Positions 3,470-40,855 of a stretch of DNA of 64,000 bases are shown piece by piece. The first letter of the stretch is position 1. Each line of letters begins with the position of its first letter. The position numbers were made by a program, and so were the translations under genes. The notes under the pieces were generated by a model. That model searched no databases. It worked only from the letters and a program-made list of their open reading frames with translations, and was not told the DNA's origin. The DNA is from Campylobacterales bacterium. Lineage in GTDB: Bacteria > Campylobacterota > Campylobacteria > Campylobacterales > Sulfurimonadaceae. The DNA lies in contig JAJRQV010000009.1 of assembly GCA_024280035.1 (NCBI GenBank), positions 1 through 64,000 of the forward strand, in the 5' to 3' direction.

Positions 3470-3916
3470 ATGAAAGTATTATTAACAAAAGATGTAAAAG
3501 GCCTAGGAAAAGCAGGTGAGATTAAAGAAGTTAAAGATGGGTATGGTCAAAACTTTTTAATTGGAAAAGGTTTTGCAAAAGCAGCAACTAATGCCGTCAT
3601 TAATCAACACAATGCCCAAGAGAAGAAAAAAGCTGAAAATGATGCTGCTGAACTGGTACATCTTAAAGAGGTAAAAGAGAAGTTAACAGAACTCACCACT
3701 ACCATTAAGAAAAAAGTAGGTGAAAATGGGCATCTTTTTGGTTCAGTAACTAAAGATGAAATTGCACATGCTGTTAAAGGTCAGCATAATATAGAAATTG
3801 ATAAAAAACATATTATTCACAGACTCTCTATGAAAGAGACAGGGATGCACGAGATTGATTTGAAACTTGGTCATGGCTTACATGCGATGATGAAAATTGA
3901 TATTGTAGCTGAGTAA
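3470..3916 (+). CDS. rplI: Large ribosomal subunit protein bL9
   Basis: A 148-residue bL9. The N-terminal domain has the signature [19 protein letters not shown] and [13 protein letters not shown], followed by the long charged connecting helix (about 40-75) and the C-terminal rRNA-binding domain ([15 protein letters not shown]). I chose ATG 3470, preceded by AAAGAAAGAGA, over upstream frame extensions because bL9 begins MKVLLTKDV. It opens the run rplI-hslV-hslU-era, a typical Campylobacterota order. hslV follows after 2 bases. Confidence 0.96.
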
Positions 3917-7649: not shown

Positions 7650-8942
7650 ATGCGATATTTTCTTCTTTGTTTTCTTTTTTTTTCACTTTATGCAGATGAA
7701 AATTTCGATCTTTATAAACTGCACGGTAAAGAAAAAGGTCCTACTCTTTTAGTTTTTGGTGGTATTCATGGTAATGAACCTGGCGGTTTTTTTGCAGCCG
7801 CAATTTTAACACAACATTATAAAATAACTAAGGGAGCCTTATGGATTGTTCCTAATACTAATAAAGAGAGTATTATTAAGAACCGTCGGGGTTCTCATGG
7901 TGACCTAAACAGAAAATTTTCAAGTATCTTAAAATCTGATAAAGATATTTATATCATTAAAGATATTAAGTCTCTTATCACAGATAAAGAGGTTGACCTT
8001 GTTTTAAACCTACATGATGGACACGGTTTTTTTAGGCAAAAATACCAAAATACAATTTTTAATCCGGGAGCTTGGGGGCAGACCTGCGTTATTGATCAGA
8101 TGGAACTTGATCAAAATAGCAGTTTCGCGAACTTAGGCTGTATTGCACAACAAGTTAGTGATAAATTAAATAAACACCTTCTTCAAGACCATCATGGGTT
8201 TAATGTTAGAAATACAAAAACAAAAAAAAGAAAGAGTGAAATGCAACATTCTTTAACCTATTTTGCAATTAATAATTCTAAGCCAGCCTTTGCAATTGAG
8301 ACCAGTAAGGAGCTTCAAACGACTGCTTTAAAAGTCTATTATCAACTCCGTGCGATTGAAGCATTCATGCAAATTATGGGCATTTCCTACCAAAGAGACT
8401 TCGAGCTAGACTCACAAAATGTTAATAATTTGACAAAAAAGGGTGGAAAAGTAGTCATTAATAGCAATATATCCCTTAATTTAGACAACTTAAGAAAATA
8501 TTTAAGTTTTATTCCGCTACAATCAAATAAGAACGAGTTATACTTCTCGCACCCTCTAGGCGGTGCTGTGGAGAGTAATGGGTTTATTGATTTGTACATT
8601 GGACATAAAAAGATTTCACGTTTAAAAAAGGCAAAGTTTATCATACAAAAATGTGAAGGTCCTTTTGAAGCAATAATAGATGGAAAGAAAAAATCTATTC
8701 ATTTACCTTCAGAAGTTAAAATTATGGACGATATAGTCTTTAATGCACCAAGAGGATACCGATTAAATGTAATTGGATTTACGGACTCAAGGTACAAAAA
8801 TGAATTGGGAATAAAAATTGCTAGACCATTAAAACGATTCTCTTTAGATAAACAAGAGAATAGGTTTAGAGCTGAGTTTTATAAAGACAATGCTTTTTGT
8901 GGAATGGTAATTTTAAATTATGTAGCTAGGAAGAATGAATGA
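7650..8942 (+). CDS. csd4: Csd4/Pgp1-like periplasmic D,L-carboxypeptidase (M14 family)
   Basis: A 430-residue exported zinc carboxypeptidase with signal peptide MRYFLLCFLFFSLYA. Zinc ligands are visible as H40-x-x-E43 (GGIHGNEPGG) and H122 (LNLHDGHG), and GDLNRKF gives the substrate-binding Asn-Arg pair. C-terminal domains of about 180 residues follow the catalytic part, as in H. pylori Csd4 and C. jejuni Pgp1, which cut muropeptide tripeptides to dipeptides and are needed for helical shape. The gene abuts the Csd6-like gene and overlaps the next gene by ATGA, so peptidoglycan trimming and the secretion-like machine downstream share a transcript. Confidence 0.85.
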   Translation: MRYFLLCFLFFSLYADENFDLYKLHGKEKGPTLLVFGGIHGNEPGGFFAAAILTQHYKITKGALWIVPNTNKESIIKNRRGSHGDLNRKFSSILKSDKDIYIIKDIKSLITDKEVDLVLNLHDGHGFFRQKYQNTIFNPGAWGQTCVIDQMELDQNSSFANLGCIAQQVSDKLNKHLLQDHHGFNVRNTKTKKRKSEMQHSLTYFAINNSKPAFAIETSKELQTTALKVYYQLRAIEAFMQIMGISYQRDFELDSQNVNNLTKKGGKVVINSNISLNLDNLRKYLSFIPLQSNKNELYFSHPLGGAVESNGFIDLYIGHKKISRLKKAKFIIQKCEGPFEAIIDGKKKSIHLPSEVKIMDDIVFNAPRGYRLNVIGFTDSRYKNELGIKIARPLKRFSLDKQENRFRAEFYKDNAFCGMVILNYVARKNE

Positions 8943-35928: not shown

Positions 35929-38058
35929 TTAGTTTCGTAGGGCTTCTTCACTCAAAGCCAAATTATCACGCTTGTAATTTTCAACAAGCTCCTCATCACA
36001 TTTTGGACAAAATTCATGCTCACCATTAAGATAACCATGTTGGTCACAAATTGAGAAAACAGGGGTCACAGTAATATACGGCAGTCTGTAGTTAGAAATA
36101 ACATTTTTCACTAACTTACGACACGCCTCAGCGGAACTTATCTTCTCTCTCATATAAAGGTGAAGTACAGTTCCTCCCGTGTATTTACACTGAAGTTCAT
36201 CTTGTAAGTCCAGCGCTTCAAAAGGATCATCCGTATGATTAGCAGGGATTTGAGATGAGTTGGTATAATAAATATTATCATCAAAACCAGCTTGCAATAT
36301 GTGGGGATAACGCTTTTTATCTTCTTTGGCAAACCTATAAGTAGTCCCTTCTGCCGGCGTAGCTTCAAGATTATAAAGATTTCCCGTAGCCTCTTGATAC
36401 TCCACCATACGAGAACGCATATGCTCTAAAATCTCAATAGCAAAAGATTCTCCTTTTTTATCCGTAATATAAAGTTTATTATCAAAAAAATTTCTTATCA
36501 TCTCGTTCATTCCATTAACACCAATGGTAGAAAAGTGGTTGTTAAAACCGGGAAGATAACGTGAGGTATAAGGAAAAAGCCCCCTATCATACATATCTTG
36601 AATAAAAACTCGTTTCTTTTCTAAGGTCTCTTTCGCCAGTTCCATCAAATGATCCACCTGTTCTAAAAGCGCTTTTTTATCTCCCTTGTAGATATAACCT
36701 AAACGTGCCATATTAATCGTAACCACCCCTATACTTCCTGTCATCTCTGCTGAACCAAAGAGTCCCCCTCCACGTTTAAGAAGTTCTCTTAAGTCTAACT
36801 GCAAACGACAACACATACTTCGTACGTGACCAGGTTTATATGCTTCAGGGTTTTCAACAAGTTTTCCATCAATCCCTCGTATATATTGAGACCCAATAAA
36901 ATTTTGAAAATAAGACGATCCTATTTTTGCTGAGTTTTCAAAAAGAAGGTCAGTGTTTTCACCATACCAATCAAAGTCTTCTGTAATATTTACCGTAGGA
37001 ATAGGAAAGGTAAAAGGCTGTCCTGTTTTATCCCCTTCCGTCATAATCTCATAAAATGCTCTGTTAATCACATTCATTTCTGCTTGAAAGTCTTTATACG
37101 TCATATTTGTAAAGTTTTCAAGCCCTCTCTTTTTTGCCTCAAGTTTTAAAGAAGGATCATCCAAGTCTAAAAACAGATGTTTCTGATTCCGTGTTGGAAT
37201 CTGATCTTTTAAGTCTGTTGGAACGGTCCAATCAATAGTAATATTAGTAAATGGAGACTGTCCCCAACGTGCAGGAACATTAAGGTTGTACACAAAAGAC
37301 CGAATTGCTTTTTTAGTCTCAGAATAAGAGAGTTTATCTTTAAAAAGGTAAGGTGCCAAGTAGGTATCAAACGAAGAGAAGGCTTGTGCCCCTGCCCATT
37401 CACTCTGTAAGATTCCCAAGAAGTTTGCCATCTGCCCAAGGGCTTCTCTGAGATGAGAAGGGGCTTCAGATTCCACACGACCACGTACCCCATTAAATCC
37501 TTCATCTAGAAGTACACGTAAGCTCCATCCTGCACAATAACCCGTTAAACAGTCTAAATCATGAATATGATAATCTCCATTTCTATGAGCATATCCCTCT
37601 TCTTTAGAATAAATTTTATCTAACCAATAATTTGCAATCACCTTACCTGCTGAGTTATTCACTAAACCTGCATTAGAATAGCCCGTATTAGAGTTAGCCT
37701 TAATGCGCCAATCTGTTCCATTAATATACTCTTCTACTGTTTGAACGGCATTAATGTAGGTAGTATCTTCATTAAACCCATGGGTATGCTCACGTTTCAT
37801 CTTATGCATCAAACGGTACAGCATAAAAGACTTCATTACTTCAAAATAACGTGCCTTATACAGCTCTTGTTCAATTAAATCTTGGATATCTTCTACCGCA
37901 GCTGCACGTTTGGATTTAAGTTTATCTATGACTCTAAAAAAGACAGACGTATCATAAGAGGTATTCTCACTCTTAAATGCTTTTTTAATGGCATCTTAAA
38001 TCTTATAAGGGGCAAACTCTTCACTCTGACCATTTCGCTTTAAAATTTGCTCTAACAT
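35929..38058 (-). CDS. nrdD: Anaerobic (class III) ribonucleotide reductase large chain, in-frame TAA at codon 21, lacking the glycyl loop
   Basis: 709 codons. From ATG 38058 the frame gives an ATP-cone start (LEQILKRNGQSEEFAPYKI), then TAA at codon 21 (37998-37996), then DAIKKAFKS and the rest of the cone and the reductase barrel without damage. Other ATP-cones have Glu, Gln or similar here, so a single G-to-T or C-to-T change explains the stop. Without readthrough, the first inner Met (37836) would lose the cone and its allosteric control. Reductase motifs include RSMCCRLQLDL and GSIGVVTINMARLGY. The C-terminus has a metal site (CDQHGYLNGEHEFCPKC) but no RVxGY radical loop, which lies in the next ORF. 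Confidence 0.88.
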
Positions 38059-38084: not shown

Positions 38085-38090
38085 AGTATA
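38085..38090 (-). promoter_or_regulatory. Possible -10 box for nrdD
   Basis: TATACT on the minus strand (38090-38085), 27 bases before the nrdD ATG and 10 bases from the proximal TGTCA pair, so bound regulator would overlap the -35 region. This is a weak prediction. Confidence 0.35.
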
Positions 38091-38100
38091 AAAAATAATT

Positions 38101-38116
38101 ATGTCACAAGATGTCA
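38101..38116 (-). promoter_or_regulatory. Tandem TGTCA direct repeat, candidate response-regulator site (proximal)
   Basis: ATGTCA at 38101 and again at 38111, exactly one helical turn apart, just upstream of the nrdD promoter. OmpR-type regulators bind such 10-base direct repeats. A lone TGTCA lies at 38145-38149. Confidence 0.55.
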
Positions 38117-38245
38117 ACTGAATTTAATGAATTTTGTTAGATATTGTCATAAGAGGATGTAGAGGTATATATCTTTAAACAGGTAGATAAATTTTGGGAA
38201 TGAACTACGCATATATACCCCACATAAGCAGTATAAGACCTTACC

Positions 38246-38261
38246 TTGTCAAACTGTGTCA
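38246..38261 (-). promoter_or_regulatory. Tandem TGTCA direct repeat, candidate response-regulator site (distal)
   Basis: TTGTCA at 38246 and GTGTCA at 38256, again with 10-base period and the same orientation as the proximal pair 145 bases away. It lies between the regulator gene and nrdD. Confidence 0.5.
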
Positions 38262-38305: not shown

Positions 38306-38333
38306 TTTATAATAAATCTTTATTTATTATAAA
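38306..38333. repeat. AT-only inverted repeat at the regulator gene stop
   Basis: TTTATAATAAA (38306-38316) and TTTATTATAAA (38323-38333) are perfect reverse complements around six bases and include the regulator stop codon. No U tract follows on the minus strand, so it is at best a weak terminator or mRNA 3' end. Confidence 0.4.
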
Positions 38334-39006
38334 GAATATAACCCACACCATAAATACTTGCAATAGTATCTTCAGGAAGTTTTGGACGAAGACGTTTAAT
38401 CAAAGACGTAATCGAATTAGAGGAAAAATCACGTTCAGGTTGATCTTCATAAATATGGTTATAAATATCAATAGCAGAAACCGTTTGATTAGGATGTGAG
38501 CACATAAAGTCAAGTACTTTTTTCTCTTTCTCTTTAAGATCAACCTCATTCTCTTCATTAAAGAGAATTTTTCTTTTTTGATTCCAGTAAAAACCATTTT
38601 TCAAGGCTATATTGTCTGAATTTTTACGCAAATCTTCTACAATATTTAAGAGTAACTCTTTAAGCTCATCACTCTTTACAGGTTTAACAAGATAGGTGAC
38701 TAAATGCAGTTTAATCGCCTTAAACAGTTTCTCTTTTTCAGAATGTGCCGTGGTGATAATGATTTTTGTTGTTTTATCTTTTTCACGAATCTTTTCTATC
38801 ATCGACAAACCATCTAAATGCGGCATATTAATATCTGCAATAATAATGTTTGGTTTCTTATTTTCATACACAGACAAGGCACTTATCCCATCTCTAGCCA
38901 CATATACATGTTCAAAAAATATCTGAAGATATTCTGTCATAGAACTTAGTAACTGCTCTTCATCTTCAGCAATTAACACACTTATATCTTTTATTTTATT
39001 ATCCAT
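38320..39006 (-). CDS. OmpR/PhoB-type response regulator
   Basis: A 228-residue regulator. The receiver domain (about 8-120) has the acidic pocket AEDE (13-16), the phosphorylation site D58 in IIIADINMPHLDG and Lys near 107 (YLVKPVKSDE). The C-terminal winged helix (about 135-228) has CSHPNQTVSAIDIYNHIYE, RDFSSNSITSLIKRLR and IASIYGVGYIL, the trans_reg_C pattern. It overlaps the kinase gene by 8 bases. Its direct downstream neighbour is nrdD with tandem repeats in between, so I infer control of the anaerobic reductase. Confidence 0.9.
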   Translation of the reverse strand: MDNKIKDISVLIAEDEEQLLSSMTEYLQIFFEHVYVARDGISALSVYENKKPNIIIADINMPHLDGLSMIEKIREKDKTTKIIITTAHSEKEKLFKAIKLHLVTYLVKPVKSDELKELLLNIVEDLRKNSDNIALKNGFYWNQKRKILFNEENEVDLKEKEKKVLDFMCSHPNQTVSAIDIYNHIYEDQPERDFSSNSITSLIKRLRPKLPEDTIASIYGVGYILYNK

Positions 39007-40855
39007 TTATCTTCTCCATCTCTATACTAAACTTTGCACCACTGTTAACATTTTGAACACTTAACTTACCACTCATAGAATTTTCAATAATCATTTTAGA
39101 GATATACAGACCTAAACCTGTTCCCATAGACTTATGTTTTGTAGTAAAATAAGGCTCAAAAACCTTATGCAAGTTTTCTTCTTTTATTCCCCCTGCATTA
39201 TCTCGAATCTCTAAAATAACATTTTCATTATGTTCTATAATTTTAATTTCAATAAAAGCACCACTTACCCCTCTGTTTTTCAAGAGGTCTTTTGCATTGC
39301 TTAAGAGAGAAACTACTACTTGCGTATATTCATTAATAAAACCGTGTACATAAATTTCTCTCTTATCTTCAAAACGTATATCAAGGGCTTTAGGGTCAAC
39401 ACTAACACTAATAATCTCTATAGCATGTCGAACTGCCTCAGAAACACTAAAATTCTCTTTCTCTTTATTAGGACGATAAAAAGTCATAAAGTCATTAATC
39501 GTATTTGACATGTATTGAATATTAACTTCTACATCTTTTAACTTTATACCTAACTCTGTGGAAGCTAATATCTCTCGTGAGTTTTTCTCTTTTAAAACAC
39601 CTACAATAGAGTTTATAATCGCTAAAGGCTGTCTCCATTGATGGGCTATATTTCCAATCATCTCTCCCATGTCTGCCATCTTTGCTTTTTGAAAAAGAAG
39701 GGTTTCTTTCTCTTTTAACTCGGTTAAATCGATAACCGTGGTAATACGAACAGGAAGATTATCCCGATAAGAAGAGCGCCCACCTACTAAAGCAGGAAAG
39801 GCATTTCCATCATCTTTTAAAAGCCTAATTTCAAAAGGAGAAACCTGTTCTTGTTCAAGAGCCTTATTACACCTGCCCACAGAGTCACCACCCGTAATAT
39901 CAAGCAGTTTTAGTTTCAAGAACTCTTGTTTGGTATAACCAAAGATAAACTCTGCTGCGGCATTTAAGTCAATGATTTCTTGTTTTTCATTAGAAACAAT
40001 CACTGCCTCATGCATGGTGTCCATTAAAATCTGAAAATGACTTAAAGACTCTAAAAGGGCAATATCTTTTCGTTTAAGTTCATCAATCGTATTAATCAGA
40101 GCATCATGATACTCTTGCTCAATATAAAGACCACAATCCAATCCTTTCATTTGAGAAATTAGGTTAGCAATTCTCTCTTTTTCAATGATAGAGCCATGTT
40201 GGGGTGCGATAAGGTTTAAGTCTAACTTTTCTATCTTTGCAAGTGCATAATTAAAAATATCTTTACTAGGCATATACTCAGCATGAAACTGTCTTGCCTT
40301 ATAACAATAATCATCTTTTGCATAAAATTCCCATGACTCTGCTATTCCACCAAAAATATCTCCTGAAAAGAGAGTTTTTGTTTTAGGTTCATACGAAACA
40401 AAAGCACCAGGTGAATGACAATACGGGGTTGTATAAAATTCCAATTCTAAGTCCCCATCAATAAGTCTGTTCTCATTTTTATCTATGGCATAATAATCTG
40501 ATTTTATCATATAATGCTTTACCAAAGGAATCATACGCGAATGCGTAATGATACGTAAGTCATTACGGTTTATAAGTTTTTCCATTTCAGGAACAGACGC
40601 GGCTAAGTCAGGGTCTTGATGATGTAAAATAATATATTTAACATTTTTCATAGAAGAGATGGTATTAACTTTTTTAACTACCGCGTCAAATTCGAGCATA
40701 GAACCTGGGTCAACAAGTACACTAGCATCACCATTTTCTATAAAATAGGGATGACATTGAAAAGGATCATTTTCTAAATACATCCCCACCCAAAATAATT
40801 TGTCTGCTATTTCAATTGCTTTGCTAAAGTCCATTTCACTTCTGCTAAGGTTCAA
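38999..40855 (-). CDS. Hybrid sensor histidine kinase with diiron ODP (FprA-like metallo-beta-lactamase) input domain
   Basis: A 618-residue soluble kinase. Residues 1-250 are a metallo-beta-lactamase-fold ODP domain with ligands H79-x-D81-x-D83 (HQDPD), H147 (CHSPG), D166 (SGDIFGG) and H220 (PQHGS), the same spacing as the diiron site of FprA flavodiiron proteins but without a flavodoxin domain. A PAS domain follows (about 270-385), then the dimerisation/phosphoacceptor helix IGNIAHQWRQPLA (His near 405) and HATPase motifs NAGGIKEEN and GTGLGLYIS. ODP domains bind O2 or NO in other systems. The paired regulator overlaps it and anaerobic reductase genes follow. The start could also be ATG 40834. 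Confidence 0.88.
   Translation of the reverse strand: MNLSRSEMDFSKAIEIADKLFWVGMYLENDPFQCHPYFIENGDASVLVDPGSMLEFDAVVKKVNTISSMKNVKYIILHHQDPDLAASVPEMEKLINRNDLRIITHSRMIPLVKHYMIKSDYYAIDKNENRLIDGDLELEFYTTPYCHSPGAFVSYEPKTKTLFSGDIFGGIAESWEFYAKDDYCYKARQFHAEYMPSKDIFNYALAKIEKLDLNLIAPQHGSIIEKERIANLISQMKGLDCGLYIEQEYHDALINTIDELKRKDIALLESLSHFQILMDTMHEAVIVSNEKQEIIDLNAAAEFIFGYTKQEFLKLKLLDITGGDSVGRCNKALEQEQVSPFEIRLLKDDGNAFPALVGGRSSYRDNLPVRITTVIDLTELKEKETLLFQKAKMADMGEMIGNIAHQWRQPLAIINSIVGVLKEKNSREILASTELGIKLKDVEVNIQYMSNTINDFMTFYRPNKEKENFSVSEAVRHAIEIISVSVDPKALDIRFEDKREIYVHGFINEYTQVVVSLLSNAKDLLKNRGVSGAFIEIKIIEHNENVILEIRDNAGGIKEENLHKVFEPYFTTKHKSMGTGLGLYISKMIIENSMSGKLSVQNVNSGAKFSIEMEKING

Follow-up and report, generated by a model that had tools for sequence, protein, structure and literature searches.

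The nrdD gene and an ODP two-component system flank a gap with two TGTCA pairs

The window, a 64,000-nucleotide stretch of a Campylobacterales contig, carries three minus-strand genes of interest: a soluble histidine kinase (38999..40855), an OmpR-family response regulator that we presume to be an activator (38320..39006), and nrdD, coding for a class III ribonucleotide reductase (35929..38058; identified by Pfam NRDD and NCBIfam matches). The kinase joins an ODP di-iron-type domain (Pfam PF19583, E 2e-58) to PAS, HisKA and HATPase domains, the arrangement of an ODP-type sensor, with the HisKA match at 26.7 bits lying just below the 26.9-bit Pfam cut-off. The regulator combines a receiver (Pfam Response_reg) with a winged-helix Trans_reg_C domain, as is characteristic of the OmpR/PhoB family. 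The window's copy of nrdD has an in-frame TAA at codon 21 (37996-37998, minus strand), within the ATP cone, where it reads YKI*DAIKKAF and its relatives read YKIEDAIKKAF; the next start codon in frame lies at 37836. This is either a nonsense mutation or an assembly error, and it counts against the control of nrdD that we propose below.

The gap between the nrdD start (38058) and the regulator stop (38320) is 262 bases long, contains no plus-strand gene start, and holds five TGTCA words, all on the plus strand (starting at 38102, 38112, 38145, 38247 and 38257); TGACA does not occur on the plus strand of the gap. A sequence-only reading had described these five same-strand words, four of them in two 10-base tandem pairs, and had expected far fewer than one by chance; both statements are confirmed. 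Dinucleotide shuffles of the gap contain 0.22 TGTCA on average, with five reached on either strand in 0 of 5,000, one 10-bp pair in 2 of 5,000, and two pairs in none of the 5,000, and the runner-up 262-base stretch within the window has two TGTCA words. Beyond the window, the genome was covered through searches and selected stretches. A genome-wide motif scan, which the same reading had proposed, found TGTCA-N5-TGTCA 14 times and the reversed pattern once; however, the N4 spacing occurs 13 times, so the raw count is little proof, and the weight of the pairs rests on their position and flanks. The fifth word (TGACA on the minus strand, 38145..38149) lacks both a partner at 10 bp and a -10 box at N11, and is probably a chance occurrence.

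Both pairs are followed by a -10 box at a fixed distance

On the minus strand, the strand of nrdD, each pair reads TGACA-N5-TGACA and is followed after exactly 11 bases by TATACT, an orientation and a spacing that the sequence-only reading had overlooked. Site 1, TGACACAGTTTGACA, occupies 38247..38261, with two half-sites at a 10-bp period; its -10 box lies at 38230..38235, and the promoter 1 transcript is predicted to start near 38223. A counterpart of this site is kept after the regulator in relatives, as is the N11-TATAMT that follows it. Site 2, TGACATCTTGTGACA, occupies 38102..38116 and has a counterpart at nrdD in 12 genomes; its -10 box, at 38085..38090, leaves a short nrdD leader. The exact pattern TGACA-N5-TGACA-N11-TATACT is found at only two places in the whole genome, both in this gap, and among the 228 genomes of the window's family it has 31 matches compared to one for a reversed control.

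The earlier suggestion of an OmpR-family direct-repeat layout is thus strengthened by the conservation of pairs and spacing across relatives, and the combination of pair and -10 box has the appearance of an OmpR/PhoB/CiaR-type activator promoter, in which an OmpR-family dimer would replace the -35 contact. A plain -35 TTGACA reading was rejected, as the distances from the half-site ends to the -10 box are 11 and 21 bases, and neither falls at 16-18. A literature search for a RacR-type motif found no paper that settles that question.

We consider it quite probable that the TGTCA pairs are class II activator sites of the neighbouring OmpR-family regulator, driving nrdD and a hairpin RNA. The sites, their spacing and conservation, their linkage to the regulator, the unlinked nrdD copies and the RNA structure of relatives can all be read directly in the sequences; binding by the regulator, the direction of its effect, the signal and the small RNA targets are inferred. 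In our proposal, the ODP kinase would sense O2, iron or NO state and phosphorylate the regulator, which would then fill both half-sites and recruit RNA polymerase to a promoter without a normal -35 (TGACA-N5-TGACA-N11-TATAMT). Promoter 2 (site 38116-38102) would give the nrdD mRNA, and promoter 1 (site 38261-38247) a hairpin-led RNA that may continue into nrdD or terminate as a small RNA. The promoter 1 of relatives would yield a small structured RNA whose loops are mostly C-rich or of UCC type, and we expect this RNA to pair with the Shine-Dalgarno sequences of mRNAs for redox or respiratory functions.

The site is linked to the ODP regulator

Scanning genome contigs with the ODP part of the kinase yielded 80 loci, 21 of which were evaluable (regulator identity of at least 54%, and a contig allowing the test). 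Conservation in the same gap of relatives had been put forward as a check on the pairs, and in 20 of the 21 the site follows the regulator on its own strand; in 19 of these 20 it is 9-44 bp from the regulator stop, and in the other (L082) it is 915 bases past the regulator, behind one gene. The single evaluable locus without the site (L090) has a convergent gene that overlaps the end of the regulator. Counting against our main reading, most Sulfurimonas ODP regulators have no site, though the recognition helix is common to them; because that helix is nearly identical, we rejected recognition-helix differences as the cause of the missing Sulfurimonas sites.

OmpR-family regulators often autoregulate, and the sites sit in the 3′ gap of the regulator, so that the regulator-bound pairs might instead repress, or autoregulate the kinase-regulator operon, as the sequence-only reading had suggested for the ODP system. 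Autoregulation was not borne out: the gap is 3′ of the operon, and the ODP loci examined all lack such a site ahead of the kinase gene. Moreover, the fixed N11 to the -10 box is an activator geometry, whereas a repressor has no need of exact spacing. We regard repression or autoregulation as very unlikely, and return to activation by the linked regulator.

As to what the kinase may sense, the chemotaxis ODP protein of T. denticola is reported to have a di-iron centre that binds O2 (PMC7666581), and by analogy of the domain the signal here would be O2, iron or NO status.

The promoter is conserved upstream of nrdD

Control of nrdD, the other proposal of the earlier reading, gains support from the presence of site plus promoter upstream of nrdD in 12 genomes (G000, which is the window's own, G007, G009, G011, G017, G019, G024, G026, G036, G066, G072 and G073). 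In G017 and G007, nrdD and the regulator are on different contigs and the promoter is still at nrdD; its conservation there is therefore no by-product of closeness to the regulator. The promoter is absent at nrdD of G010, G018 and G022, all without a close ODP regulator, and the five sister genomes that make up the rest of the window's genus have neither nrdD nor the ODP system. G024 counts against our main reading: the promoter is present at its nrdD, yet a search of the assembly (94% complete) turned up no close ODP regulator.

Sulfurimonas-type nrdD genes (L249 in G006, L248 in G033 and L253 in G153) have a different arrangement upstream, TGACA-N6-TGACA with an 11-bp period and no -10 box at N11; G006 shows it despite having no close ODP regulator.

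Promoter 1 heads a predicted structured RNA in most relatives

A further feature missed by the sequence-only reading is the predicted structured RNA headed, in most relatives, by the first promoter. The regulator of Sulfurovum-type loci is followed by a convergent gene of ppx/gppA type, so promoter 1 drives no gene there. The exact promoter is present in 12 of 15 Sulfurovum-type genomes, and in ten of them it occurs once, beside the regulator. A second exact site-plus-promoter of one Sulfurovum-type genome (L265, G254:C30) lies upstream of nosZ.

The Sulfurovum-type RNA starts at or beside AAGAGGUG, ~6-8 bases past the -10 box, and has CACCUCU as its closing strand. The arms of the inner hairpin vary yet pair (AGUAUA/UAUACU, AGUGCA/UGCACU, AGUACA/UGUACU), and the loop is C-rich, typically with four to eight consecutive C. 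Of the 11 pairs of helix 2, six show compensatory change, and covariation is 0.221 compared to 0.123 when shuffled and 0.02-0.09 when slid. We built a covariance model, R1, on the Sulfurovum-type ODP-linked RNA; it recovers loci outside its building set (L096, 1e-7). Each genome has a single strong R1 match, located at the regulator, except G259 with two, one of which is on a short duplicate contig. Rfam 15 gave no relevant match in the window or its relatives, and a small open reading frame in place of the RNA was rejected, visual inspection of the Sulfurovum RNAs having shown no conserved frame. The RNA is apparently non-coding, and the putative small RNA of the relatives is previously undescribed. 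Separately, L088:166-241 has a near-threshold match to the c-di-GMP-I-GGC riboswitch (57.7 bits; gathering threshold, 59).

Three tandem promoters occur in L080, L081 and L095, which are closer relatives of the window; two hairpin RNAs come first and then nrdD. In L095, the stretch between the third promoter and nrdD contains an extended, almost perfect inverted repeat (8025-8140; z -7.6), which may be a small mobile element. In the window itself, the promoter 1 transcript is predicted to begin with a hairpin (38159..38223, minus strand) that has an end-to-end stem, an inner stem GUAG/CUAC, and UUCCC in the loop. Its place and plan are like those of the relatives' RNA; however, the fold (-12.5 kcal/mol) is weak against shuffles (z -1.3) and an R1 search of the window gave no match at 38159-38223, so the window's own RNA is a reasoned guess.

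The hairpin RNA could be a mere 5′ leader or terminator stem rather than a regulatory RNA. Readthrough into nrdD is conceivable at the nrdD-linked loci, and helix 2 of the Sulfurovum-type RNA abuts the convergent ppx/gppA-type gene and could serve as a two-way terminator. Against this, the Sulfurovum-type RNA has no same-strand gene following it and has a conserved 5′ domain and a C-rich loop, and in L080, L081 and L095 two RNA units precede nrdD. We regard a mere leader or terminator as the less likely reading.

In most Sulfurovum-type genomes no exact site other than the regulator-linked one occurs, and the small RNA may be the main output. We advance tentatively, at somewhat less than even confidence, that in Campylobacterota the di-iron O2/NO-type kinase acts mainly via one regulator-linked C-rich small RNA, with nrdD added in the lineages where it is present. 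So read, the system would be a convergent counterpart of SrrAB/ResDE with RsaE/RoxS, with a narrowness like that of GacA-RsmY/Z.

Other TGTCA pairs and a paralogous system

Eleven of the 14 TGTCA-N5-TGTCA occurrences in the window's genome are intergenic, two of them in the gap. The other nine lie near norBC, nosZ, ccoNOQP, ccoG, porins, cytochrome c and other genes (C29:4498, C61:20016, C99:12446, C104:27783, C71:12131, C72:2548, C45:8151, C14:61602 and C6:23056). None of these nine has a -10 box at exactly N11, the nearest being the C71 porin site, with TAAAAT; because the N4 spacing is nearly as frequent (13), the support for them is their intergenic placement. They may be further targets, or sites of a paralogue. 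A paralogous kinase-regulator pair in G015 (L235, contig C9) has TGACA-N5-TGACA-N11-TACAAT at 3529 and 6330, with one copy at its own regulator and one at a neighbouring gene; the site is thus not exclusive to the ODP regulator.

These observations bear on whether the ODP linkage is incidental and the sites belong instead to a general respiratory regulator or to an OmpR-type paralogue. The shared promoter of the G015 system would fit, as would the promoter at nrdD of G024 and the pairs upstream of norBC, nosZ, ccoN and ccoG in the window's genome, which have no -10 box at N11. Set against these are the adjacency of site and ODP regulator in nearly all evaluable loci, the absence of the site at nrdD in the three genomes without a close ODP regulator, and its absence from the ccoN upstream region in five sister genomes, which lack the ODP system. 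We judge ownership by another factor improbable; most likely, the ODP sensor system switches on nrdD and, in relatives, the small RNA.

Comparison with known regulatory systems

ODP sensor systems are present across many Sulfurovum- and Sulfurimonas-type metagenome-assembled genomes, and for an orphan system of this kind our reading would supply a protein target and an RNA output together with a DNA site and promoter architecture. Literature searches found no report of an ODP-linked promoter, nrdD and small RNA circuit.

SrrAB of S. aureus and ResDE of B. subtilis activate the C-rich small RNAs RsaE and RoxS (PMC4409812) and also nrdD (PMC12632269), with low O2 and NO as the conditions. The system described here is similar in that an OmpR-family regulator responding to O2/NO status would, as predicted from sequence, control nrdD and a C-rich small RNA, which suggests that joint control of a C-rich small RNA and of anaerobic dNTP synthesis by an O2- or NO-type OmpR system arose on more than one occasion. 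Unlike SrrAB/ResDE, the kinase is soluble, has an ODP metallo-beta-lactamase-type domain and belongs to a different phylum; unlike in the RsaE/RoxS circuit, the small RNA is beside the regulator, and site and small RNA have no evident sequence relation to theirs. Membership in the ResDE/SrrAB families was rejected: the kinase has an ODP domain, and the best families for the regulator were others, all far under cut-off.

The CiaRH system of streptococci likewise has a direct-repeat regulator site fused to a -10 box, where it drives the csRNAs, several of them clustered, much as proposed here for the hairpin RNAs; CiaR promoters, nearly identical in geometry, read TTTAAG-N5-TTTAAG-N10-TATAAT (PMC3091779). 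The two differ in motif, period and spacing (TGACA, 10 bp and N11 here; TTTAAG, 11 bp and N10 there), and in their sensors. A second likeness is to LisRK and LhrC of Listeria, where multicopy small RNAs depend on a two-component system and bind mRNAs by pairing through UCCC motifs; the C-rich motifs of RsaE, LhrC and others pair with Shine-Dalgarno sequences (PMC4132741). LisRK/LhrC differs in its envelope-stress signal and in having the LisR-responsive element further upstream.

The Pho box has TGTCA-type half-sites ~11 bases from the -10 box, at an 11-bp period and in a direction relative to the promoter opposite to that of the present site. PhoB and a Pho box were rejected for the window, where the regulator scores 65 bits against a cut-off of 296 and the period is 10.
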